Origin: Stomoxys calcitrans
Lineage: Eukaryota > Arthropoda > Insecta > Diptera > Muscidae
Direction: 5' to 3'
Assembly (NCBI RefSeq): GCF_963082655.1
Contig: NC_081552.1
Location: forward strand, 59,376,561 to 59,440,560
DNA length: 64,000 bases
Shown here: positions 33,148 through 56,791 of the stretch, one piece after another
How the letters are laid out: each line of letters starts with the position of its first letter
How positions within the stretch are numbered: the first letter of the stretch is position 1
The notes under the pieces: generated by a model
What the model saw: only the letters and a program-made list of their open reading frames with translations
Told to the model about the DNA's origin: nothing
Database searches by the model: none
Translations under genes and position numbers: made by a program

Positions 33148-34664
33148 AACAAATAAAAGCGTGCTAAGTTCGGCCGGGCCGAATCTTATATACCCTCCAC
33201 CATGGATCGCATTTGTCGAGTTATTTTCCCGGCATCTCTTCTTAGGCAAAAAAGGATATAAGAAAAGAGTTGCTCTGCTAATAAAACGATATCAAGATAT
33301 GGTCCGGTTCGGACCACAATTAAATTATATGTTGGAGACCTGGGTAAAATTTCAGCCAATTCGTATAAGAATTGCGCCCATTGGGGCTCACGAAGTAAAA
33401 TAGAGAGAACGATTTATATGGGATTTGTATCGGGCTATAGACCGATTCAGACCATAATAAACAAGTTTTTTGATGGTCATGAGAGGATCCGTCGTACAAA
33501 ATTTCAGGCATATCGGATAATAATTGCGACCTCTAGGGGTCAAGAAGTCAAGATCCCAGATCGGTTTATATGGCAGCTATATCAGGTTATGAACCAAATT
33601 GAACCTTATTTGACACAGTTGTTGAAAGTAAAAATAAAATACGTCATGCAAAATTTCAGCCAAATCGGATAGGAATTACGCCCTCTAGAAGCTCAAGAAA
33701 TCAAATCCCCAGATCTGTTTATATGACAGCTTTATCAGGTTATGGACCGATTTCAACCATACTTGGCACAGTTGTTTGATATAATAACAAAATACTACGT
33801 GCCAAAATTCATTCAAATCGGATAAGAATTGTGCCCTCTAGAGGCTCAAGAAGTCAAGACCCAAGATCGGTTTATATGGGAGCTATATCAGGTTATGGAC
33901 CGATTTGAACCAAACTCTTCACAGTTGTTGGATATCATATCAAAACACGTCGTGCAAAATTCCATTCTATTCGGATAAGAATTGCGCCCTCTAGAGGCTC
34001 AAGAAGTCAAGACCCAAGATCGGTTTATATGGCAGCTATATCAGGTTATAGACCGATTTGAACCATACTTGGCACAGTTGTTGGATATAAAAACAAAACA
34101 CGTCGCGCAAAATTTCATTCCAATCGGATAAGAATTGCGCACTCTAGAGGCTCAAGTAGTCAAGACTCAAGATCGGTTTATATGGCAGGTATATCAGGTT
34201 ATGGACCGATTTGAACCATACTTGGCACAGTTGTTGAATATCATAACAAAACACGTCGTGCCAAAATTCATTCAAATCGGATAAGAATTGCGCCCTCTAG
34301 AGGCTGAAGAAGTCAAGACCCAAGATCGGTTTATATGGCAGCTATATCAGGTTATGGACCGATTTGAACTATACTTGGCACAGTTGTTGGATATCGTAGC
34401 AAAACACGTCGTGCAAAATTTCATTCCAATCGGATAAGGATTGCACACTCTAGAGGCTCAAGAATTCAAGACCCAAGATCGGTTTATATGGCAGCTATAT
34501 CAAAACATGGACCGATATGGCCCATTTACAATACCAACCGACCTACACTAATAAGAAGTATTTGTGCAAAATTTCAAGCGGCTAGCTTTACTCCTTCGGA
34601 AGTTAGAGTGCTTTCGACAGACAGACGGACGGACGGACGGACAGACGAACGGACATGGCTAGAT
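33148..34664 (+). mobile_element. HINE-A, fused at its right end to another copy
   Basis: Hairpin end (TTCGGCCGGGCCGAA at 33169) through seven interior units with exact 153-bp spacing (34031, 34184, 34337, 34490) to the GGACATGGCTAGATCG motif. It then joins directly to 'ccctctagaggctcaag', an interior unit of a second copy, without the core or the TATACCC end. Confidence 0.9.
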
Positions 34665-35798
34665 CGCCCTCTAGAGGCTCAAGAAGTCAAGACCCAAGAT
34701 CGGTTTATATGACAGCTATATAAGGTTATGGACCGATTTGAACTATACTTGGCGCAGTTGTTGGATATCATAACAAAACACGTCGTGCAAAATTTCATTC
34801 CAATCGGATAAGAATTGCGCACTCTAGAGGCTCAAGAAGTCAAGACCCAAGATCGGTTTATATGGCAGCTATATCAGGTTATAAACCGATTTGAACCATA
34901 CTTGGCACAGTTGTTGGATATAATAACAAAATACGTCGTGCAAAATTTCATCCCAATCGGATAAGAATTGCGCACTCTAGAGGCTCAAGAAGTCAAGACC
35001 CAAGATCGGTTTATATGGCAGCTATATCAGGTTTTGAACCGATTTGAACCATACTTGGCACAGTTGTTGGATATCATAACAAAACACGTCGTGCAAAATT
35101 TCATTCTAATCGGATAAGAATTGCACACTCTAGAGGCTCAAGAAGTCAAGACCCAAGATCGGTTTATATGGCAGCTATATCAGGTTATAAACCGATTTGA
35201 ACCATACTTGGCACAGTTATTGGATATCATAACAAAACACGTCGTGCAAAATTTCATTCCAATCGGATAAGAATTGCGCACTCTAGAGGCTCAAGAAGTC
35301 AAGAAGTCAAGACCCAAGATCGGTTTATATGGCAGCTATATCAGGTTTTGAACCGATTTGAACCATACTTGGCACAGTTGTTGGATATCATAACAAAACA
35401 CGTCGTGCAAAATTTCATTCTAATCGGATAAGAATTGCGCACTCTAGAGGCTCAAGAAGTCAAGACCCAAGATCGGTTTATGTGGCAGCTATATCAAAAC
35501 ATGGACCGATATGGCCCATTTACAATACCAACCGACCTACACTAATAAGAAGTATTTGTGCAAAATTTCAAGCGGCTAGCTTTACTCCTTCGGAAGTTAG
35601 CGTGCTTTCGACAGACAGACGGACGGACGGACGGACGGACGGACGGACGGACAGACGGACGGACATGGCTAGATCGACATAAAATGTCGCGACGATCAAG
35701 AATATATATACTTTATGGGGTCTCAGACGAATATTTCTAGTAGTTACAATCGGAATGACGAAATTAGTATACCCCCCCTCTTATGGTGGAAGGTATAA
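34665..35798 (+). mobile_element. HINE-A, right part of a fused pair
   Basis: Five interior units (153-bp period; one carries an 8-bp tandem duplication of AAGAAGTC at about 35297), then (GGAC)n, ACATGGCTAGATCGAC, the core and CCCCCCCTCTTATGGTGG AAGGTATAATA. No hairpin end of its own. Confidence 0.9.
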
Positions 35799-35936
35799 TA
35801 CCCTCATTAAAATGATGTCAAGGATCACGAATAAATTATGCTAAATTTAATCATATCCATATGAAATGCCAACGGCGTTACCAACCATTTTTACGAAATC
35901 GAAGTATTTATAAAACTAAACCATGTATAAATGTAT
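35799..35936. other. No recognisable feature
   Basis: Short spacer between inversely oriented HINE-A copies. Confidence 0.4.
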
Positions 35937-37720
35937 ACCATGTATACTAATTTCGTCATTCTGATTGTAACTACTCGAAATATTCGTCTGAGACCCCATA
36001 AAGTATATATATTCTTGATCGTCGTGAAATTTTATGTCGATCTAGCCATGTCCGTCCGTCCGTCTGTCCGTCCGTCTGTCTGTCGAAAGCACGCTAACTT
36101 CCGAAGGAGTAAAGCTAACCGCTTGAAATTTTGCACAAATACTTCTTATTAGTGTAGGTCTGTTGGTATTGTAAATGGGCCATATCGGTCCATGTTTTGA
36201 TATAGCTGCCATATAAACCGATCTTGGGTCTTGACTTCTTGAGCCTCTAGAGTGCGCAATTCTTATCCGATTGGGATGAAATTTTGCACGATAAGTTTTG
36301 TTATGATATCCAACAACTGTGCTAAGTATGGTTTAAATCGGTTCATAACCTGATATAGCTGCCATATAAACCGATCTTGGGTCTTGACTTCTTGACTTCT
36401 TGAGCCTCTAGAGTGCGCAATTCTTATCCGATTGGAATGAAATTTTGCACGACGTGTTTTGTTATGATATCCAATAACTGTGTCAAGCATGGTTCAAATC
36501 GGTTCATAACCTTATATAGCTGTCATATAAAACAATCTTGGGCCTTGATTTCTTGAGCCTCTAGAGTGCGCAATTCTTACCCAATTGGGATGAAATTTTG
36601 CACGAAGTGTTTTGTTATGATATCCAACAACTGTGCCAAGAATTGTTCACATCGGTCCATAACCTGATATACCTGCCATATAAACCGATCTTGAGTCTTG
36701 ACTTCTTCAGCCTCTAGAGTGCGCAATTCTTCTCCGATTTGAATGAAATTTTGCACGACGTGTTTTGCTACGATATCCAATAACTGTACCAAGTATGGTT
36801 CACATCGGTCCATAACCTGATACAGCTGCCATATAAACCGATCTGGGGTCTTGACTTCTTGAGCCTCTAGAGTGCGCAATTCTTATCCGACTGGAATGAA
36901 ATTTTGCACTACGTGTTTTGTTATGATATCCAATAACTGTGCCAAGTGTGGTTCAGATCGGTCTATAACCTGATATAGCTGCCATATAAACCGATATTGG
37001 GTCTTGATTTCTTGAGCCTCTAGAGGGCGCAATTCTCATCCGACTAGACTGAAATTTTGCACGACGTGTTTTAGTATCACTTCTAACAACTGTGCTAAGT
37101 ATGGTTCAATTCGGGCCATTACCTGGTATACCTGTCATATAAACCGATCTTGGGTCTTGACTTCTTGAGGCTCTAGAGTGCGCAATTCTTATCCGATTAG
37201 AATGAAATTTTGCACCACATGTTTTGTTATGATATCCAACAACTGTGCCAAGTATGGGACAAATCGGTCCATAACATGATGTAGCTGCCATATAAACCTA
37301 TCTTGGGTCTTGACTTCTTGGGCCTCTAGAGAGCGCAATTCTTATCCGATTTGCCTGAAATTTTGTACGACGGATTCTCTCATGACCATCAACATACGTG
37401 TTTATTATGGTCTGAATCGGTCTATAGCCCGATACAGCTCCTATATAAATCGATTTGTCTATTTTACTTTTTGAGCCCCCAAAGAGCGCAATTCTTATTC
37501 GAATTGGCTGACATTTTACACAGGTCTCCAACATATAATTTAATTGTTGTCTAAACCGGATCATATCTTGATATCGCTTTAATAGCAGATTTTTCTTTCT
37601 TTCTTTTCTTATATAATTTTTTGCCTAAGAAGGATGCCGGGAAAAGAACTGACAAATGCGCTCCATGGTGGAGGGTATATAAGATTCGGCCCGGCCGAAC
37701 TTAGCACGCTTTTACTTGTT
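35937..37720 (-). mobile_element. HINE-A, long copy
   Basis: Starts GTATACTAATTTCGTCATTC (TATACCC end lost), core at about 36003, about eight interior units, one with a duplicated GACTTCTT at about 36385. The hairpin end CGGCCGAACTTAGCACGC is at about 37692. The final about 450 bp closely match the palindrome outer end (19270-19739). Confidence 0.92.
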
Positions 37721-37722
37721 AA

Positions 37723-37889
37723 AGACTGTAGCGTGATTTTAACAGACAGATGGACGGACGGACATGTCTAGATCGTCTTAGATTTTTACGCTGATCAAGA
37801 ATATGTATACTTTATAGGGTCGGAAATGGATATTTGCAAACGGAATGACAAAATGAATATACCCCCATCCTTCGTTGGTGGGTATAAAA
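37723..37889 (+). mobile_element. HINE-C right-end module alone
   Basis: 'aaagactgtagcgtgattttaacagacag...gatcgtcttagatttttacgctgatcaagaatatgtat' to TTCGTTGGTGGGTATAAAAA. This is the same about 200-bp module that is doubled at 15692-16107, here without any interior. Confidence 0.85.
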
Positions 37890-37910
37890 ATATGTATTTA
37901 TTTTTTTAAC

Positions 37911-39231
37911 ATTTTTATACCCTCCACCATAAGATGGGGGTTATACTTATTTCGTCATTCTGTTTGTAACTACTCGAAATATTCGTGTGAGACCCCATAA
38001 AGTATATATATTCTTTATCGTCGAGACATTTTATGTCGATCTAACCATGTCCGTCCGTCCGTCTGTCTGTCGAAAGCACGCTAACTTCCGAAGAAGTAAA
38101 GCTAGCCGCTTGAAATTTTGCACAAATACATCTTAATAGTGTAGGTCGATTGGTGTTGTAAATGGGCCATATCGGTCCATGTTTTGATATAGCTGCCATA
38201 TAAACCGATCTTGGGTCTTGATTTGTTGAGCCTCTAGTGTGCGCAATTCTTATCCGATTGGAATGAAATTTTGCACGACGTGTTTTCTTATGATACCCAA
38301 GAACTGTGCAAAGTATGGTTCAAATCGGTTCATAACCTGATATAGCTGCCATATAAACCGATCATGGATCTAGACTTCTTGAGCCTATAGCGTGCGCAAT
38401 TCTTATCCGATCAGAATGAAGTTTTGCACGACGTGTTTTGTTATGATATCCAATAACTGTGCCAAGTATGGTTCAAATCGGTCCATAACCTGGTATAGCT
38501 GCCATATAAACCGATCTTGGGTCTTGACTTCTTGAGCCTCTAGAGTGCGCAATTCTTATCCGATTGAAATGAAATTTTGCACGACGTGTTTTGTTATTAT
38601 ATTCAAGAACTGTGCCAAGTATGGTTTAAATCGGTCCATAACCTGATATATCTGTCATATAAACAGATCTGGGGATTTGACTTCTTGAGCTTCTAGAGGG
38701 CGCAATTCCTATCCGATTTGGCTGAAATTTTGCATGACGTATTTTATTTTTACTTTCAACAACTGTGTCAAATATGGTGCAAATCGGTTCATAACCTGAT
38801 ATAGCTGCCATATAAACCGATCTGGGATCTTGACTTCTTGACCCCTAGAGGTCGCAATTATTATCCGATATGCCTGAAATTTTGTACGATGGATCCTCTC
38901 ATGACCATCAGCAAACGTGTTTATTAAGTTCTGAATCGGTCTATAGCCCGATACATATCCCATATAAATCGTTCTCTCTATTTTACTTCGTGAGCCCCAA
39001 TGGGCGCAATTCTTATACGAATTGGCTGAAATTTTACACAGGTCTCCAACATATAATTTAATTGTGGTCCGAACCGGACCATATCTTGATATCGTTTTAA
39101 TAGCAGAGCAACTCTTTTCTTATATCCTTTTTAGCCTAAGAAGAGATGCCGGGAAAACAACTCGACAAATGCGATCCATGGTGGAGGGTACATAAGATTC
39201 GGCCCGGCTGAACTTAGCACGCTTTTACTTG
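37911..39231 (-). mobile_element. HINE-A, full ends
   Basis: TTTTTATACCCTCCACCATA at the left, CGGCCCGGCTGAACTTAGC and TTACTTGTT at the right. Core variant TATATATTCTTTATCGTC, six interior units. Confidence 0.92.
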
Positions 39232-40819: not shown

Positions 40820-41769
40820 TTGGGTTGCTTAAAAAGTAATTTCGGATTTTTTAAAAGAAAGTAAATGCATTTTTAATAAATCTTAGAATGAACTTTAATC
40901 AAATATATAATTGCCATTTTGTTCGATAACCTTTTGCCATCTTCCTGACAAATTTAGTATTCCACGCTCATAGAACTTCTGGCCTTTATCTGCAAAAAAC
41001 TGAACAAAGTGCGATTTTATAGCCTCATCATTGCCGAAAGTTCTACCATTTCAGGAGTTCGCAAAGATCGAAATAAATGGTAGTCTGATGGTGCAAGATC
41101 AGGGCTATATGGTAGATGCATCAAAAGTTCCCAGCCAAGCTCACTCAGTTTTTGGCGAGTGACCAAAGATGTGTGCGGCCTAGCGTTGTCCTGGTGGAAT
41201 ATGACACCTTTACGATTGACCAATTCTGGTCGCTTCTCCTTGATGGCTGTATTCAATTTGTCCAATTGTTGACAGTAAACATCCGAATTAATTGTATGGT
41301 TCCTTGGAAGCAGCTCAAAATATACCACACCCTTCCAATCCCACCAAACAGACAGCAAAACCTTCTTTTGGTGGATATCAGCCTTTCAAGTGGTTTGAGC
41401 TGGTTCACCATGCTTGGACCATGATCGTTTCGACTAACGTTGTTGTAAACAATCCATTTTTCATCTCCAGTTATGATTCGTTTTAAAAACGGATCGAATT
41501 CATTGCGTTTAAGGTACATATCGCAAGCGTTGATTCGGTTTGTTAAATGAATTTCTTTCAATACATGTGGTACCCATATTAAAATTGACGCCAAACAAAC
41601 AAATGTAAACAAAATTTCGCGCACTTTTTTTCTAAAGCAAGCTGAAAGTAACAGCTGATAACTGGCAGAAGAAAGAATGCAATTACAGAGTCACAAGCCG
41701 TTGAAACAATTTGTCAACGCCGACTATATTACTACTATGTTACCAACAATTACTTTTTGGGCAACCCAA
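40820..41769 (-). mobile_element. Mariner (cecropia-like), both ends, defective
   Basis: A 950-bp element between TA dinucleotides (40818-40819 and 41770-41771). Terminal repeats TTGGGTTGCTTAAAAAGTAA and TTACTTTTTGGGCAACCCAA. It has the same N-terminal transposase deletion as the copy at 17576-18546, with the same junction sequence (AAAAAAAGTGCGCGAAATTT), so both come from one deleted master copy. Confidence 0.93.
41017..41624 (-). pseudogene. Mariner transposase pseudogene
   Basis: Minus strand, in two frames. 41624-41253: NRINACDMYLKRNEFDPFL and ITGDEKWIVY with the first catalytic Asp. 41358-41017: VWWDWKGVVYFELLPRNHTI, the HQDNARPHTSLV box with the second Asp, and YSPDLAPSDYHLFRSL with the third Asp at the DD34D spacing. 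All three catalytic residues are readable, but a frameshift (about 41360), loss of a few codons after FRSL (about 41060) and absence of the N-terminal DNA-binding domain make it inactive. Confidence 0.88.
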
Positions 41770-42161: not shown

Positions 42162-42349
42162 CAAGTAAAAGCGTGTTAAGTTATGCCGAGTCGAATCTTC
42201 GAAATCCACCACCATGGATTCTACTAAAAATGTATATAAAATAAATTTAGTTTATGGCCATAATTTTGTTCTACATTCCAAACTTCTGTCAAACCAGCAA
42301 AAATTAAATCTTCTAGAAACCGAACAAGTATAATCGAGAGACCGTTTTA
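42162..42349 (+). mobile_element. HINE-B, left part (target of the LINE)
   Basis: GCAAGTAAAAGCGTGTTAAG, a damaged hairpin, CCACCACCATGGATTCTACT, then diverged B interior up to GAGAGACCGTTTTA. It continues after the LINE at 46515 with the same 14 bases and 'tatggaagctgtatcagg'. Confidence 0.82.
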
Positions 42350-42363
42350 CAGCCAAACCAAAT

Positions 42364-43104
42364 ATGGAGTCAAGTGAATTAATTGATCTGATCAAAGATA
42401 CTATTAATAATAATTTAGATGACAAGCTTAAAATGCTCCCAACAAAATCTGATTTGGAAGATATAAAACAAGAAATCACTTCTATAGGATCAGAAATAAA
42501 TTCATTAAAAGCGGAGAATCAAAACCTGCGGGAGGAGCTTAATAAGGTAAAAAAGGAAAATGCAGAACAAAAAAAAGACATCACATGGTTACAAAATCAA
42601 ATAAGGTCCAATAAAATATTTATAAAAGGATTAATTTCTGCTACCAAACCTATGGATGAAGTTAGAAAACTTTTCAGGGAAACATTAAAGATAACAGCGG
42701 ATATATCAAATGTGCGTAAAGTTTTTGAACGTAATGGAAAAATGGCAGTGCTAGTGGAACTAGGTACCCCACAAGCTATAGATGAAGTTTTTCGCAACAC
42801 TAAAAATTTGGCTGGCACAAACATATCAGTTGAACGAGACTTGATACCAAAAAGACAGCAACAAAAGAAAGCATTCCTGGGACTAAGGAAACAAATATTA
42901 GCAGTTAGCAAGCAATATAAGATTTTAGTAAGAGATGATAAACTCAAAATAAATAATATTTGGTTCAAATGGAATAACGAAAATAAGCTTATATGTGGTA
43001 ATTCAAATGGAGAAGAGGAGCTAGTTAAACTATATGGAGAAAATATCAAATCAATTAACATCAACTTTAATCAACTAAGTCAAAATTTATTTTCAAAAAA
43101 CTAA
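42364..43104 (+). CDS. LINE ORF1 protein (coiled coil, nucleic-acid binding)
   Basis: 246 residues starting at ATG 42364, the first ATG of the element. Residues about 10-75 are strongly heptad-like and charged (IKDTINNNLDDKLKMLPTKS, then EINSLKAENQNLREELNKVK and KENAEQKKDITWLQNQIR), which predicts a trimerising or dimerising coiled coil. After it, SNKIFIKGLI...MAVLVELGTPQAIDEVFRN looks like the compact RRM-type fold that follows the coiled coil in L1-style ORF1 proteins, and a basic segment (RDLIPKRQQQKKAFLGLRKQ) precedes a C-terminal domain. No CCHC zinc knuckle is visible. Its likely role is an RNA-binding chaperone forming the retrotransposition particle. It ends FSKN-stop with the slippery site A AAA AAC over the last two codons. 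The coiled coil is confident; the RRM-like fold is inference. Confidence 0.88.
   Translation: MESSELIDLIKDTINNNLDDKLKMLPTKSDLEDIKQEITSIGSEINSLKAENQNLREELNKVKKENAEQKKDITWLQNQIRSNKIFIKGLISATKPMDEVRKLFRETLKITADISNVRKVFERNGKMAVLVELGTPQAIDEVFRNTKNLAGTNISVERDLIPKRQQQKKAFLGLRKQILAVSKQYKILVRDDKLKINNIWFKWNNENKLICGNSNGEEELVKLYGENIKSININFNQLSQNLFSKN
43095..43101 (+). promoter_or_regulatory. Predicted -1 ribosomal frameshift site (A AAA AAC)
   Basis: In the ORF1 frame the codons read TCA AAA AAC TAA, so the heptamer A AAA AAC has exactly the X XXY YYZ phasing of a -1 slippery site, directly before the stop. A -1 slip makes the next codon CTA (43101-43103), which is in the ORF2 frame and stays open into the endonuclease. 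I see no strong stem-loop downstream by eye, only a weak CCAC (43111-43114) with GTGG (43146-43149). The stop codon next to the site could itself favour slipping. Confidence 0.65.
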
Positions 43105-46100
43105 AAGTACCCACTACGGAAGAAAATTCTAAAACCTTATCAATTGTGGCATATAATATAAATGGGATTGAAAATAAATATTTATTCCCTACATTTTTCC
43201 AATACATTAAGCAGTTCGAAATATTTTTATTACAAGAAACTCATCTAGAAAAAGAAAAAACAGAAAGGGCAAGGTCTTACTTCAATGGATTTCATTTGTT
43301 TTTCAAACCTGCTATACGAATACACAGATTTGGTAGAGCTATTGGAGGAAGCATACTTGGTATAAGTAAAAATCTAAAAGATTTTGGAATATCGCATGAA
43401 GTCAATGAGAACGAAGATCTCACTATTAAATTGTTCAACAAGCACAATACCATTACTATAATTCCCCAATATTTAAGACCGGTTAGCTGGGATATTGATT
43501 TTAGGCGGTTAAAACAGATATTTCAAGATGTTGAAGTACCAAATGCTGTAATAATGGGAGATCTAAATGTTAGAATTGGAGAGCTGCGGCAGGATATAGG
43601 AGAATTTTACACTGAAAACTTTTATGCCGGTTATGAAGTCAGAAAATCGAAAGATAAGATTATAAATCAAAAAGGTAAACAATTTATACAATTCTGCAAC
43701 GATTACAATATATTCGTATTAAATGGTGTAACCAAAGGCGACGAGGACGGAAAATGCACATATGTTAGCACAATGGGGGAATCGGTAAACGATATATGTG
43801 CTGTATCTAAAGAAACGTTGGATATTGTTAATGAATTTGTTGTCGATGATAAGGTGTGGTCCGATCATTTTCCTATAAACCTAAAACTGAATATGCAAAT
43901 GGAAAAGGCAAAAAAGATGAACTTGCTACCAAAACTAATTTGGAAAGATAGTAGAAAAATTCAATACCAAAGTTCTCTAAATGAAAATTTTGATTGTAGC
44001 TTATCCACAAACGAAGAAATAGGTCTAACCGATGTCTGTAAATTAATCCAACTATCTTCTGTGCCATCGACTGAATTATACTCATTTGAGCCGAAATGTA
44101 AGTGGTATAATAACAATTGCAACAAGGCAAGAATAAAAAGCTTTCAATTATTAAACGTGTACAGAAAAACAAAAGATTCAGAAGACCGAAAAAGATATCT
44201 GTCAGCGCAAAATCATTACAAGATAGTATGCAATAACAGTAGAGCCGATTATTATAATGAAATGGCAAGTAGATTAAATTATGTTACAAACTCAAAAGAT
44301 TGGTGGAAAGTCGCCAGGGAAATACGTTGCCACTATAATCAAGCAGGATCTGCCCTTACATCAAATATTTTCAAACGCTATTTTGAAAATTTATTAAATT
44401 CAGTACAAAAAAATGCCGTTATATATTACGCACCAACATTTACGGAAGACTTGGATTTAGATGGACCAATAATGATGTCAGAGTTGAAAAAGATACTACA
44501 AAATGTGAAGATTAATAAGGCTCCTGGCGAAGACAGAGTGCCGTATGAATTCTTCGTTAATGGTACGGAACAGCTGCACAAACAACTGCTTAGAATATAT
44601 AATAAAATATACACAGAAGGAACAGCTGATCCAACATTTACAAAAACGATCATTTATCCAATATATAAAAAAGGAGATAGCAATGATCCGTCAAATTATA
44701 GAGGCATATCCTTTATGAACTGTGTAGCCAAAATATTTATGGGAGTTCTGAACGAACGCTTGTATAATTGGGTTGAAAAATATGGGATTCTGACTGAGTT
44801 TCAAGCAGGATTCCGTAAGAAATATTCAACGGTTGACAACATATATAACCTTTCAACTGTCATTAGTCTAAAGCTGGGGGAAAAAAGAAAAGTTTATGCC
44901 TTCTTCGTAGATTTTAAAGCGGCGTTTGACAATATATCCAGGCAAGCACTAATCTACAAACTCTTTCAGTTGGGTGTGTCCCACAAAATGGTATCTATGA
45001 TAGAATCAATCTATAATAAAACGCAATCGGCAGCTTGGGACGGTTATGAATTATCTGAATACTTTGATACTACTAAAGGAGTGAAACAAGGATGCTTACT
45101 GTCACCATTACTATTCTCTCTTTATATCAATGACCTGTATGAATACCTTGAAGGCGGAATTTTTGTCGAAAATTTGAACCTACGGCTCCTACTATACGCT
45201 GATGACATTGTGTTGCTAGCAGACGACGTCCATGTATTACAGAATATGATACACAACCTAGAAATATACTGTAATACCTGGAACCTGGAAGTGAACCTAT
45301 CAAAATCGGAAATTATGGTTTTCAGGAATGGAGGCAGACTAGCCAAACACGAAAAATGGAAATTTAATGGAAACGTAATTAAAATTACAAATGAATATAA
45401 ATATTTAGGGGTAATATTCACACCAAAGATGACATTTACTAAACATATCCAAAATCGGAACAACCAAGCAAAAATTGCAATAAACGCAACATGGAAAAAC
45501 TTTGTAGGCAGAACAGACATAAATATGAACGCAAAATGGAAATTGTTTTTAGCGGTTTGCAGATCCATTCAAACCTACGCTGCCCAAGTTTGGGGGTTCT
45601 GTCATTTCGAAGAAGTTGACTCCTTGCAACGTTATTTCTTAAAAAGGATTTTAAAACTACCAGTTTGTACTCCAAACTACGTACTCATGCTAGAAACGGA
45701 GGTAGAGGATACACATATATATACCCTGGGACTGCACTTAAAATATATAGGAAAAACTCTGTTTCAGCATTCGGGCGCTAGATTGCCAAACCAGCTATCC
45801 AATATTGCATTACCCAGAAATGTCTTCTGGGTAAAAGAACTGAAATCCTTAGCTGCAAGTATGGATATTCAATGGCCTGAAGCATTTCCTTCATCAAGCC
45901 TATGGTATGACTTTACCAAGAAACTTATAAACAGCTTAAAACTGAACCTCTATCAAAATAGGATTCACAGAAAAACGGAAAGCCAACAAAGAATATATAA
46001 ATACCTGGACCCGAACAAAGCCTATCTCTATCTTAATGAGCGATACACATCAGAAAATATTACTTGGATATTTAAAGCTCGCAGTGGAATGATATCCCTG

Positions 46101-46364
46101 GGTTACAATAACTTTGAAGAGAATGAGTCGGAAAAAATGTGTAAGCTTTGCAACCTAAGAGAAACAGAAACTTTGGACCATTTCCTTGGAATTTGTCCGG
46201 TTCTAAGAGAATTTAGATTGGCCGCCTTTAGTAAAGCATCATTGAGCTTCGTAGAAGTACTCCATATACTAGACGGAATTGAAGTGGGAAATTGGGATAA
46301 GCTAACAACTTATTTACGAATGGCTTATAATTATCGGCAACTTTTATTAAATGAATATCATTAA
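43101..46364 (+). CDS. LINE ORF2: endonuclease and reverse transcriptase
   Basis: Open from the frameshift site to the stop at 46364 (about 1087 residues). Numbering from the GTG at 43146: residues 1-245 are an apurinic-type endonuclease with AYNINGIEN, LQETHLEKE (catalytic Glu31), MGDLNVRIG (Asp139/Asn141) and SDHFPI (Asp240/His241). Residues about 455-760 are the reverse transcriptase, with IIYPIYKKGDSNDPSNYRGI, FFVDFKAAFDN (Asp589), GVKQGCLLSPLLFSLYINDL and LLLYADDIVLL (Asp686/Asp687), all catalytic residues intact. Near the end CKLCNLRETETLDHFLGIC (999-1017) is a Cys-Cys-His-Cys cluster like those that bind target or RNA in LINEs. No RNase H domain. No ATG lies before the endonuclease; the first internal Met is 137, in its middle. 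Translation must therefore come from frameshifting, reinitiation at a non-ATG codon, or an equivalent event. It would nick target DNA and reverse-transcribe the element RNA in the nucleus. Confidence 0.95.
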   Translation, partial: LKVPTTEENSKTLSIVAYNINGIENKYLFPTFFQYIKQFEIFLLQETHLEKEKTERARSYFNGFHLFFKPAIRIHRFGRAIGGSILGISKNLKDFGISHEVNENEDLTIKLFNKHNTITIIPQYLRPVSWDIDFRRLKQIFQDVEVPNAVIMGDLNVRIGELRQDIGEFYTENFYAGYEVRKSKDKIINQKGKQFIQFCNDYNIFVLNGVTKGDEDGKCTYVSTMGESVNDICAVSKETLDIVNEFVVDDKVWSDHFPINLKLNMQMEKAKKMNLLPKLIWKDSRKIQYQSSLNENFDCSLSTNEEIGLTDVCKLIQLSSVPSTELYSFEPKCKWYNNNCNKARIKSFQLLNVYRKTKDSEDRKRYLSAQNHYKIVCNNSRADYYNEMASRLNYVTNSKDWWKVAREIRCHYNQAGSALTSNIFKRYFENLLNSVQKNAVIYYAPTFTEDLDLDGPIMMSELKKILQNVKINKAPGEDRVPYEFFVNGTEQLHKQLLRIYNKIYTEGTADPTFTKTIIYPIYKKGDSNDPSNYRGISFMNCVAKIFMGVLNERLYNWVEKYGILTEFQAGFRKKYSTVDNIYNLSTVISLKLGEKRKVYAFFVDFKAAFDNISRQALIYKLFQLGVSHKMVSMIESIYNKTQSAAWDGYELSEYFDTTKGVKQGCLLSPLLFSLYINDLYEYLEGGIFVENLNLRLLLYADDIVLLADDVHVLQNMIHNLEIYCNTWNLEVNLSKSEIMVFRNGGRLAKHEKWKFNGNVIKITNEYKYLGVIFTPKMTFTKHIQNRNNQAKIAINATWKNFVGRTDINMNAKWKLFLAVCRSIQTYAAQVWGFCHFEEVDSLQRYFLKRILKLPVCTPNYVLMLETEVEDTHIYTLGLHLKYIGKTLFQHSGARLPNQLSNIALPRNVFWVKELKSLAASMDIQWPEAFPSSSLWYDFTKKLINSLKLNLYQNRIHRKTESQQRIYKYLDPNKAYLYLNERYTSENITWIFKARSGMISLGYNNFEENESEKMCKLCNLRETETLDHFLGICPVLREFRLAAFSKASLSFVEVLHILDGIEVGNWDKLTTYLRMAYNYRQLLLNEYH

Positions 46365-46514
46365 TTAAAATTTAAAGTTTATGCGACAGACGTTATACAC
46401 ATAGTCGCTAATAAATATTACTTCTTTCTAAGAATAAATGTACATATTTAGAAAATTAATTTTAAGTAACATATCTGCTATGAATCAAAGATTTTATTCG
46501 AATAAAAAGAAGAA
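46365..46514 (+). other. LINE 3' UTR
   Basis: 150 bp, AT-rich, ending AATAAAAAGAAGAA at the target-site duplication. AATAAA near the end may serve as the polyadenylation signal. Confidence 0.7.
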
Positions 46515-46745
46515 GAGAGACCGTTTTATATGGAAGCTGTATCAGGTTATAGACAAGTTTGGACCGTACTTTGCACAGTTGGAAGTCGTAGCAGAAGACC
46601 ACACGCAGAATTTCAGCCAAATCGCATAAGAATTGTGCAATAAAGAGGCTCAAGAATTCAAGATCAAAGATCGGTTTATACGGAAACTATATCAAAACCA
46701 TGGATCGATATATCCTATTTACAATCCCAACCGAACTACACGTTT
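46515..46745 (+). mobile_element. HINE-B, right part after the LINE
   Basis: Continues the HINE interrupted at 42349. One and a half interior units (AGGTTATAGACAAGTTTGGA, 'gaagtcgtagcagaagacc') and 'ctatatcaaaaccatggatcgatat'. The TATACCC end is lost. Confidence 0.75.
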
Positions 46746-49790: not shown

Positions 49791-50826
49791 AAACAAGTAA
49801 AAGCGTGCTAAGTTCGGCCGGGCCGAATCTTATATACCCTCCACTATGGATCGCATTTGTCGAGTTCTTTTCCCGGCATCTCTTCTTAGGCAAAAAAGGA
49901 TATAAGAAAAGAGTTGCTCTGCTATTAAACGATATCAAGATATGGTCCGGTTTGGACCACAATTAAATTATATGTTGGAGACCTGTGTGAAATTTCAGCC
50001 AATTAGTATAAGAATTGCGCCCATTGGGGCTCACGAAGTAAAATAGAGAGAACGATTTATATGGGATCTGTATCGGGCTATAGACCGATTCAGACCATAA
50101 TAAACACGTTTGTTGAAGGTCATGAGAGGATCCGTTGTACAAAATTTCAGGCATATCGGATAATAATTGCGACCTCTAGGGGTCAAGAAGTCAAGATCCC
50201 AGATCGGTTTATATGGCAGCTATATCAGGTTATGAACCGATTTTAACCTTATTTGACACAGTTGTTGAAAGTAAAAATAAAATACGTCATGCAAAATTTC
50301 AGCCAAATCGGATAGGAATTGCGCCCTCTAGAAGCTCAAGAAGTCAAATCCCCAGATCTGTTTATATGACAGCTATATCAGGTTATGGACCGATTTGAAC
50401 CATACTTGGCACAGTTGTTGCATATCATAACAAAACACGTCGTGCAAAATTTCATTTCAATCGGATAAGAATTGCGCACGCTAGAGGCTCAAGAAGTCAA
50501 GACCCAAGATCGGTTTATATGGCAGCTATATCAAAACAGTGACCGATATGGCCCATTTACAATGCCAACCGACCTACACTAATAAGAAGTATTTGGGCAA
50601 AATTTCAAGCGGCTATCTTTACTCCTTCGGAAGTTAGCGTGCTTTCGACAGACAGAAGGACAGACAGACGGACGGACGGACAGACGGACGGACATGGCTA
50701 GATCGACATAAAATTTCACGACGATCAAGAATATATATACTTTATGGGGTCTCAGACGAATATTTCGAGTAGTTACAATCAGAATGACGAAATTAGTATA
50801 CCCCCATCTTATGGTGGAGGGTATAA
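49791..50826 (+). mobile_element. HINE-A, full ends
   Basis: AACAAGTAAAAGCGTGC, TTCGGCCGGGCCGAA, four interior units, the core at about 50727 and CCCCCATCTTATGGTGG then AGGGTATAAAAA. Its hairpin end touches the truncated previous HINE. Confidence 0.93.
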
Positions 50827-51053
50827 AAACAGTGTAAAAGTACTTTAAACAGTGACATGACGCGTTCTTCAAACCTACTTGATGCTTATGACTCATGTGT
50901 GCTGTGTGTTGTAAACAATAACGATGACCCTTTTTCCTGTCGTAAACGCATGTACCCTGTCTGTGCTCCAAATTCTTTTACAAACAGCATGTGCAATATA
51001 CAACAACAAAATGTTATCTTATCGTGTGCAGAGTAGGTGTGTGAACCGCACCA
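50827..51053. other. No recognisable feature
   Basis: About 230 bp single-copy spacer. Confidence 0.4.
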
Positions 51054-51740
51054 TTTTTATAACCTCCACCATAAGATGGGGGGTATACTAATTTCGTCAT
51101 TCTGTTTGTAACTACTCGAAATATTCGTCTGAGACCCCATAAAGTATATATATTCTTGATCGTCGTGACTTTTTATGTCGATCTAGCCATGTCCGTCCGT
51201 CCGTCCGTCTGTCTGTCGAAAGCACGCTAACTTCCGAAGGAGTAAAGCTAGCCGCTTGAAATTTTGTACAAATACTTCTTATTAGTGTAGGTCGGTTGGT
51301 ATTGTAAATGGGTCATATCGGTCCATGTTTTGATATAGCTGCCATATAAACCGATCTTGGGTCTTGACTTCTTGAGCCTCTAGAAGGCGCAATTCTTATC
51401 CGATTGGAATGAAATTTTGCACGACGTGTTTTGTTATAATATCCAACAACTGTGCCAAGTATGGTTGAAATCGGTTCATAACCAGATATAGCTGCCATAT
51501 AAACCGATCTTGGGTCTTGATTTCTTGAGCCTCTAGAGTGCGCAATTCTTATCCGATTGAAATGAAATTTTGCACGACGTGTTTTGTTATTATATCCAAT
51601 AACTGTGCCAAGTATGGTTGAAATCGGTCCATAACCTGATATAGCTGTCATATAAACAGATCTGGGGATTTGACTTCTTGAGCTTTTAGAGGGCGCAATT
51701 CCTATCCGATTTGGCTGAAATTTTGCATGACGTATTTTAT
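51054..51740 (-). mobile_element. HINE-A, cut by the next copy
   Basis: TTTTTATAACCTCCACCATA, core at about 51138 and three interior units, ending at 'gcatgacgtattttat'. There the TATACCC end of another HINE-A is joined head to tail. The hairpin end is missing. Confidence 0.88.
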
Positions 51741-52898
51741 TATACCCTCCACCATAAGATGGGGGGTATACTAATTTTCTGTTTGTAACTACTCGAAATT
51801 TTCGTCTGAGACCCCATAAAGTATATATATTCTTGATCGTCGTGACATTTTATGTCGATCTAGCCATGTCCGTCCGCCCGTCTGTCTGTCGAAAGCACGC
51901 TAACTTCCGAAGGAGTAAAGCTAGCCGCTTGAAATTTTGCACAAATACTTCTTATTAGTGTAGGTCGGTTGGTATTGTAAATGGGCCATATCGGTCACTG
52001 TTTTGATATAGCTGCCATATAAACCGATCTTGGGTCTTGACTTCTTGAGCCTCTAGAGTGCGCAACTCTTATCCGATTGGAATGAATTTTGGCAGGACGT
52101 GTTTTGTTGTAATATCCAACAACTGTGCCAAGTATGGTTCAAATCGGTCTATAACCTGATATAGCTGCCATATAAACCGATCTTGGGTCTTGACTTCTTG
52201 AGCCTCTAGAGGGCACAATTCTTATTCGATTTGAATGAATTTTTGCACGAAGTATTTCGTTATGATATCCAACAACTGTGCCAAGTATGGTTGAAATCGG
52301 TCCATAACCTGATATAGCTGTCATATAAACAGATCTGGGGATTTGACTTCTTGAGCTTCTAGAGGGCGCAATTCCTATCCGATTTGGCTGAAATTTTGCA
52401 TGACGTATTTTATTTTTACTTTCAACAACTGTGTCAAATAAGGTTCAAATCGGTTCATAACCTGATATAGCTGTCATATAAACCGATCTGGGATCTTGAC
52501 TTCTTGACCACTAGAGGTCGCAATTATTATCCGATATGCCTGAAATTTTGTACGACGGATCCTCTCATGACCATCAACAAACGTGTTTATTATGGTCTGG
52601 TCGGTCTTAAGCCCGATACAGATCCCATATAAATCGTTCTCTCTATTTTACTTCTTGAGCCCCAATGGGCGCATTTCTTATACGAATTGGCTGAAATTTT
52701 ACACAGGTCTCCAACATATAATTTAATTGTGGTCCGAACCGGACCATATCTTGATATCGTTTTAATAGCAGAGTAACTCTTTTCTTATATCCTTTTTTGC
52801 CTAAGAAGAGATGCCGGGAAAAGAACTCGACAAATGCGATCCATGGTGGAGGGTATATAAGATTCGGCCCGGCCGAACTTAGCACGCTTTTACTTGTT
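51741..52898 (-). mobile_element. HINE-A, full ends
   Basis: TATACCCTCCACCATAAG at the left, CGGCCGAACTTAGCACGC and TTACTTGTT at the right. Four interior units, including the same 'gcatgacgtattttatttttac' sequence at which the previous copy was broken. Confidence 0.92.
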
Positions 52899-55518: not shown

Positions 55519-56791
55519 TTTTATACCCTCCACCATAAGATGGGGGGTATACTAATTTCGTTATTCTGTTTGTAACTTCTCGTCCGTCCGTCCGTCTGTC
55601 CGTCCGTCCGTCCGTCTGTCTGTCGAAAGCACGCTAACTTCCGAAGGAGTAAAGCTAGCCGCTTGAAATTTTGCACAAATACTTCTTATTAGTGTAGGTT
55701 GGTATTGTAAATGGGCCATATCGGTCCATGTTTTGATATAGCTGCCATATAAACCGATCTTGGGTGTTGACTTCTTGAGCCTCTAGAGTGAGCAATTCAT
55801 ATCCGATTGGAATGAAATTTTGCACGACGTGTTTCGTTATTATATCCAACAATTGTGCTAAGTATGGTTCAAATCGGTCCGTAACCTTATATAGCTGCCA
55901 TATAAACCGATCTGGGGTCTTGACTTCTTGAGCCTCTAAAGTGCGCAATTCCTATCCGATTGAAATGAAATTTTGCACGACGTTTTTTGTTATGATATCC
56001 AACAACTGTGCCAAGTATGGTTCAAATCGGTCCATAACCTTATATAGCTGTCATATAAACCGATCTTGGGTCTTGACTTCTTGAGCCTCTAGAGTGCGCA
56101 ATTCTTATCCAATTGGGATGAAATTTTGCACAAAGTGTTTTGTTATGATATCCAACAACTGTGCCAAGTATTGTTCACATCGGTCCGTAACCTTATATAG
56201 CTGCCATATAAACCGATCTGGGGTCTTGACTTCTTGAGCATCTAGAGTGCGCAATTCCTATCCGATTGAAATGAAATTTTGCACGACGTTTTTTGTTATG
56301 ATATCCAACAACTGTGCCAAGTATGGGTCAAATCGGTCCATAACCTGATGTAGCTGCCATATAAACCGATCTTGGGTCTTGACTTCATGGGCCTCTAGAG
56401 AGCGCAATTCTTATCCGATATGCCTGAAATTTTGTACGACGGATCCTCTCATGACCATCAACATACGTGTTTATTATGGTCTGAATCGGTCTATAGCCCG
56501 ATACAGATCCCATATAAATCGATCTCTCTATTTTACTTTTTGAGCCCCCAAAGGGCGCAATTCTTATTCGAATTGGCTGACATTTTACACAGGTCTCCAG
56601 CATATAATTTAATTGTTGTCTAAGCCGGATCATATCTTGATATCGCTCTAATAGCAGAATTTTCTTTCTTTCTTTTCTTATATCATTTTTTGCCTAAGAA
56701 GAGATGCCGGGAAAAGAACTGACAAATGCGCTCCATGGTGGAGGGTATATAAGATTCGGCCCGGTCGAACTTAGCACCCTTTTACTTGTTA
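55519..56791 (-). mobile_element. HINE-A with core deleted
   Basis: TTTTTATACCCTCCACCATA, then 'tgtaacttctcgtccgtccg': the segment containing the AAGTATATATATTC core and CTAGCCATG has been deleted. Five interior units and the hairpin end (one mismatch, CGGTCGAA). Its last about 430 bp closely resemble 37290-37720 and the palindrome outer end. Confidence 0.92.

Follow-up and report, generated by a model that had tools for sequence, protein, structure and literature searches.

How long interspersed nuclear elements (LINEs) with two open reading frames (ORFs) make their second protein is a long-standing open question, and the answers proposed include reinitiation, AUG-independent initiation, self-cleaving 2A peptides and, in Dictyostelium, a -1 frameshift. 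Frameshifting is familiar in retroviruses and little documented for LINEs. The closest described systems are the Dictyostelium elements TRE5-A and TRE3-A, two-ORF LINEs of the apurinic/apyrimidinic endonuclease (APE) type whose ORF2, according to a figure legend in a review, depends on a -1 frameshift (PMC5911963). Recoding is also in play in fly elements without long terminal repeats (non-LTR elements): expression of the Drosophila HeT-A gag is said to require a frameshift, and the way in which TART produces its reverse transcriptase (RT) polyprotein is described as unknown (PMC5009743). In Bombyx SART1, ORF2 is reported to depend on ORF1 translation through UAAUG coupling (PMC2881922, PMC5972666), and unconventional termination-reinitiation is the proposed route to the ORF2 protein of LINE-1 (L1), whose ORF2 follows a 63-nt spacer (PMC5972666). 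Here, we analyzed a stretch of 64,000 nucleotides from Stomoxys calcitrans (NCBI RefSeq assembly GCF_963082655.1, contig NC_081552.1, positions 59,376,561 to 59,440,560 of the forward strand), hereafter the window, which carries a copy of a bicistronic LINE. Judging from the phase, frame relation and conservation of a slippery heptamer at the ORF1 stop, this element very probably expresses ORF2 as an ORF1-ORF2 fusion through -1 programmed ribosomal frameshifting.

ORF1 of the window copy ends in TTT TCA AAA AAC TAA on the plus strand. The heptamer A AAA AAC (43095..43101) lies in the X XXY YYZ phase of ORF1 and is directly abutted by the ORF1 stop TAA (43102..43104). From the CTA at 43101, the -1 frame is open to a stop ending at 46364; it is open already from 43071, so that the ORF1 frame and the open ORF2 frame overlap over 43071..43104. 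The resulting ORF2 (43101..46364, 1087 aa) encodes an AP endonuclease and a reverse transcriptase, and its first ATG (43554..43556), where the NCBI model P0001 begins, falls within the endonuclease at the motif VIMGDLN. An earlier note on this DNA had described the in-phase heptamer ahead of the stop, the 1087 open codons in the -1 frame and the lack of an ATG ahead of the endonuclease, and all three descriptions were confirmed when the sequence and its frames were read out. A second canonical heptamer in phase, A AAT TTA, lies four codons 5' of this site (43083-43089), where the -1 frame is also open; it was not at that position in the other four families scanned.

The same junction recurs in other copies in the genome. 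A search of the 1.07-Gb assembly with a pattern of two fixed flanks separated by a run of 3 to 10 bases returned 18 junctions of the same family, the window's included, every one of which reads exactly A6C. Over the aligned pieces, the other 17 copies are 99.5-99.96% identical to the window copy, and copies exist in which both ORFs are open across the entire stretch compared. Such near-identity indicates that the arrangement belongs to an element that moved recently, as opposed to one that arose through decay; for the same reason, these copies do not constitute independent evidence. More distant families were sought at the protein level, with the endonuclease portion of ORF2 as the query; this gave 144 scored matches among 1043 candidates. 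We read 136 of these, the remaining eight all beginning at query residue 25 or later, and excluded from the junction count four loci with no ORF1 beside ORF2 (L047, L065, L069 and L070). Grouping by identity yielded nine families (window, L009, L048, L050, L059, L061, L063, L066 and L167), whose endonucleases are 39-62% identical to that of the window copy (L167, 46%). A AAA AAC stands in phase with the ORF1 stop in all nine, and ORF2 lies in the -1 frame in all nine, as read out from the family representatives. The heptamer is present in 131 of the 132 junctions with ORF1 attached, which comprise the 18 of the window family, 86 short pieces pattern-matched to heptamer and stop (85 by script and L167 by eye; 86/86 with the site) and 28 other loci (27/28). 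The ORF1 stop follows directly in seven families and after a single codon in two (CAA in L050, TTT in L167), and thus stands zero or one codon from the heptamer in every family read. The sole exception, L051 of the L048 family (G000:C2:134116983-134117747, minus strand), has lost heptamer and stop through a 35-nt deletion that joins ORF1 and ORF2 into a single open frame of 1377 codons, a natural fusion. Conservation of the heptamer and of the frame relation in other copies and relatives, on which the earlier note had made its proposal depend, therefore held in both respects. Two NCBI proteins, P0014 (Stomoxys LOC131997617) and P0063, join ORF1 to part of ORF2 while omitting the junction; these are probably gene predictions in which an artificial intron was placed where the frame changes.

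Conservation of the site is evident at the level of nucleotides. In a codon alignment of eight families, with Met and Trp columns omitted, the ORF1 tail (107 ungapped codons) contains 17 columns with a single amino acid, and the only two that also use a single codon are the AAA (Lys) and AAC (Asn) of the heptamer; none of the 24 such columns in the ORF2 head does so. The longest invariant run in the ORF1 tail is CAAAAAAC (8 nt), the second longest measures 5 nt, and the longest in the first part of ORF2 measures 3 nt. Across the ORF1 stretches of the eight families, some of them partial, Lys is encoded by AAA in 143 of 204 cases and Asn by AAT in 96 and AAC in 51 of 147, yet the Asn of the heptamer is AAC in 9/9 families. 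The residue preceding this Lys-Asn (KN) pair varies, and its codon ends in A in 9/9. Random reordering of the codons of ORF1, carried out for five families, put A AAA AAC in the final heptamer position 0.1-0.2% of the time in each. Because codon invariance is confined to the heptamer, AAC is kept despite the AAT majority and shuffles rarely yield the site, the alignment indicates that selection acts on the seven bases and not on the peptide alone. Production of an ORF1-ORF2 fusion by frameshifting, as the earlier note had proposed, is thus supported by features that are observed directly: the heptamer and its phase, the -1 frame, the missing ATG and a conservation across families that extends to the nucleotides.

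According to this model of frameshifting, ribosomes translating ORF1 would arrive at A_AAA_AAC, where most would read the abutting stop and release the ORF1 protein (ORF1p), which has the LINE-1-type arrangement of coiled coil, RNA recognition motif (RRM) and C-terminal domain (CTD). In a minority, both tRNAs would slip back by one base and translation would proceed into ORF2 beginning with CTA, so that an ORF1p-endonuclease-RT fusion with the junction ...FSKN-LKVP... would result. We infer that ribosomes shift at this site, at a rate that would set the ratio of ORF1 to ORF2 products, and that the fusion is the working enzyme. Human ORF1p of the same type is trimeric (2yko), so the fusion could take a place within ORF1p trimers in the way that Gag-Pol is incorporated with Gag. 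The Pfam matches listed for the two ORFs include no protease domain, so that the ORF1-ORF2 product would presumably stay fused. If this model is correct, LINEs and retroviruses would have converged on one dosing device. The ORF1p-RT fusion could then physically underlie cis preference, which is known for LINE-1.

The known systems each share some features with the element and differ in others. The Dictyostelium TRE elements share the APE-type two-ORF layout and the -1 shift for ORF2; however, they are amoeba elements, and no shift site, comparative test or assay is described for them in the passages concerned (PMC5911963). HeT-A differs in having no RT of its own, the shift serving gag, while for TART no conserved ORF1-ORF2 shift site is described in the passages concerned (PMC5009743). 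SART1 is, like the present element, a two-ORF insect LINE, and the L061 family, a relative of the window family, has a TAATG junction; the reported restart of SART1 at an AUG with a downstream structure (PMC2881922, PMC5972666) nevertheless contrasts with the situation here, where no AUG precedes the endonuclease in 7/9 families, the heptamer is invariant and no structure is predicted. Human LINE-1 resembles the element in its ORF1p type (best PDB match 2yko) and in RT sequence, which matches L1 ORF2p, but is described as using a 63-nt spacer and reinitiation instead of the fusion predicted here (PMC5972666). Gag-Pol expression in retroviruses and LTR retrotransposons offers a mechanistic parallel in its -1 frameshifting. 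The heptamer A_AAA_AAC is cited as among the most shift-prone with mammalian ribosomes, and 28 of 51 surveyed animal LTR elements are reported to have pol in the -1 frame, many with such sites, most in D. melanogaster (PMC5009743). These elements, however, belong to an unrelated class, and the site described here has an abutting stop and no predicted stimulator structure. In view of the Dictyostelium TRE (PMC5911963) and HeT-A gag (PMC5009743) precedents, as far as those sources describe them, frameshifting in non-LTR elements is no novelty in principle. The open-access literature searched, by titles and abstract openings, yielded no animal LINE with a -1 shift from ORF1 into ORF2. The apparent novelty lies in a dense comparative case from animals, in which one heptamer is invariant, the stop adjoins it and no structure is predicted. 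This animal lineage, with its many near-identical copies, gives a strong comparative signal for frameshifting, and it supplies natural controls in the form of a fused copy (L051), a UAAUG family (L061) and a clade without KN.

The KN dipeptide can be followed beyond this genome. Two ORF1 protein searches returned 51 homologues, of which 49 have a C-terminus (the fragments P0142 and P0143 were omitted from this count). KN is terminal in 32 of the 49 and lies within the last seven residues in seven more, as read from protein sequence. Homologues with a named source species are those of Haematobia irritans (P0100) and Anastrepha obliqua (P0134, ...SKN*). The tail ahead of KN is otherwise variable. 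The residue before a terminal KN is S, P, K, T, Q, A, V or L, for which an A-ending codon is possible in 32/32 cases; residues with a possible A-ending codon make up 75% of these ORF1 proteins. Four homologues (P0109, P0128, P0138 and P0140) end in NLK*, NSK* or NNK* rather than KN*, and the NLK* ending could be encoded as U_UUA_AAA, another canonical heptamer.

Several observations weigh against frameshifting or qualify it. KN is absent in 10 of the 49 ORF1 homologues, and in P0130, one of the seven with a near-terminal KN, the preceding residue is N, for which no A-ending codon is possible. On an ORF1 tree computed without the last nine residues, the KN label requires six changes, three of them forced by well-supported branches, and a single supported group of 16 contains eight of the ten proteins without KN; KN is therefore not universal. 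Nor are the counts independent, owing to shared family ancestry and near-identical copies, and the homologues P0094 and P0116 represent the same families as this genome. The earlier note's claim that no in-frame ATG precedes the endonuclease, extended to the relatives, was only partly upheld: in seven of the nine families the ORF2 frame lacks an ATG ahead of the YNxNG motif of the endonuclease, whereas L167 has one at the first endonuclease strand and the L061 family has a UAAUG stop-start with its ATG in the ORF2 frame, which could permit reinitiation. This TAATG is found in 17/17 copies read (L061, L062 and L113-L127); the SART1-type UAAUG is absent in the window family, and L061 is the only one of the nine to have it. 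With heptamer and TAATG together, the L061 family possibly employs two mechanisms side by side or represents a switch in progress.

A further difficulty concerns the downstream RNA. The stimulatory structure suggested earlier for 43102-43200 did not materialize, as no stable fold was detected there (z 0.15), and no significant downstream fold was obtained in eight families over two windows (z -1.07 to 1.82), pseudoknots not being modelled in either case. Upstream windows in the eight families gave z values from -1.82 to 1.38; the 70-nt upstream windows of L061 and L066 reached z near -1.8, which was not common to the other families. With no significant fold in the window or in the eight families, a simple stem-loop stimulator, as distinct from a pseudoknot, appears unlikely from these predictions. 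The site departs from textbook frameshifting in two ways: eight families gave no downstream structure, and the stop adjoins the heptamer directly (one codon off in 2/9). Stop proximity is the only other regular feature seen beside the heptamer. We tentatively consider that this fly LINE lineage may have moved to a Gag-Pol-like strategy, with fusion at a minimal, structure-free site where the abutting ORF1 stop acts as the stimulator, although this is somewhat less likely than not to be the full account. Such an arrangement would fix the dose of enzyme and tether the reverse transcriptase to ORF1p trimers on its own RNA.

The main rival to ribosomal frameshifting is polymerase slippage, whereby RNA polymerase would add one A at the A6 run and the fusion would be translated from a minority of A7 transcripts without any slip by the ribosome. 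One extra A would indeed unite the two frames, and the A6 run is invariant; however, slippage requires neither a codon phase nor the C, and AAC is retained in 9/9 families although AAT is the commoner Asn codon. Moreover, if slipped RNAs made an enzyme favouring its own RNA, A7 copies should have accumulated, yet no A7 or A5 junction was seen: the 18 window-family junctions are all A6, although the pattern allowed other lengths, as are a further 86/86, of which 85 were read by a script allowing runs of 4 to 9 and L167 by eye. We consider slippage improbable. Reinitiation, in which the ribosome would end ORF1 and start again at the stop or close to it, in most of these families from a codon other than AUG, is consistent with the adjoining of stop and ORF2 in nine families and draws further support from the L061 junctions. 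Most families nevertheless offer it no ORF2-frame ATG, as noted above; the codon after the shift codon in those seven (AAA, GGA, ATA, ATA, AAG, ACT or ATT, AAA) is no conserved near-cognate start, and the nearest downstream ATGs of L009 are in the ORF1 frame. Reinitiation also leaves unexplained both the invariance of the seven pre-stop bases and the single codon that separates heptamer from stop in two families, and we regard it as quite improbable.

A different kind of explanation is that the heptamer is kept for the ORF1 protein, as a functional C-terminal Ser/Pro-Lys-Asn tail with no part in ORF2 translation. ORF1 proteins end in KN more often than in any other way, and the final three residues, which have low confidence in the predicted structure, could form a flexible binding tail. 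Protein constraint does not fix codons, however: Lys AAG and Asn AAT are unused at the site in nine families, whereas more than one codon occurs in each of the other 15 ORF1-tail columns with a single amino acid, and the residue before KN varies while its codon remains A-ending. This explanation would also leave ORF2 without a start, and we judge it highly improbable.

The predicted structure of ORF1 (mean pLDDT 85) comprises a coiled coil, an RRM and a small CTD. Its top five PDB matches are all human LINE-1 ORF1p (best 2yko), with E values of 1.1e-5 to 2.1e-4 and TM-scores that reach only 0.29-0.38 across the full length. The sequence matches listed from Pfam and PDB are of the coiled-coil kind only. 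Under a published scheme, this ORF1 would be of type II, the LINE-1 type, which is reported there for the L1, CR1, L2 and R1 clades (PMC4120745). In ORF2, the Pfam domains Exo_endo_phos_2 and RVT_1 give the layout of an APE-type LINE, with endonuclease and RT in one ORF after ORF1. The RVT_1 domain, with YADD, occupies 44667..45416 on the plus strand (ORF2 residues 523-772), and the GDxN, SDH and YADD columns are invariant among ten proteins compared.

The window copy itself is 5'-truncated and spans 42349..46509 on the plus strand, the range over which copies align, with ends certain to within a few bases. The longest direct repeat, the 14-nt GAGAGACCGTTTTA, lies at 42336..42349 and recurs at 46515..46528, forming the 5' and 3' target-site duplications; the last base of the 5' duplication is possibly the element's own. 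The 14-bp duplication and the start of the copy inside ORF1 are both hallmarks of APE-type LINEs. All 15 copies whose upstream DNA was inspected extend beyond 42349 into further ORF1 codons (L004 and L025, with shortened ORF1, stand outside this set), and the homologue P0094 is 37 residues longer than the window ORF1 (42364..43104, plus strand, ending KN*). By comparison with these longer sequences, the apparent ORF1 start at 42364 is an internal Met of a longer ORF1. The truncation leaves the 3' ORF1-ORF2 junction unaffected.

Scans of viral contigs returned no relative. A single scan of bacterial and archaeal genomes gave nine loci at 24-33% identity, which are probably eukaryotic contaminants, and none of the four with ORFs examined has A AAA AAC at an ORF end. 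A plasmid search gave eight records with weak matches, none spanning 80% of the query.

Further observations concern the ends and surroundings of the element. GAAGTC(CTA)n-like microsatellite tails occur at the 3' ends of 10 of the 11 copies inspected (e.g., L017, L019 and L026), L021 having none, and the window copy terminates a few bases earlier. Repeats spaced by approximately 150 bp occur at many places in the window (e.g., 33490-38889, 50049-52557 and 55711-56590); the same repeats flank LINE copy L008, and the window copy probably sits in similar sequence. At 41017-41690 on the minus strand, overlapping ORFs resemble a broken transposase of the mariner type, with a motif such as HQDNARPH...YSPDLAPSDYHLF.

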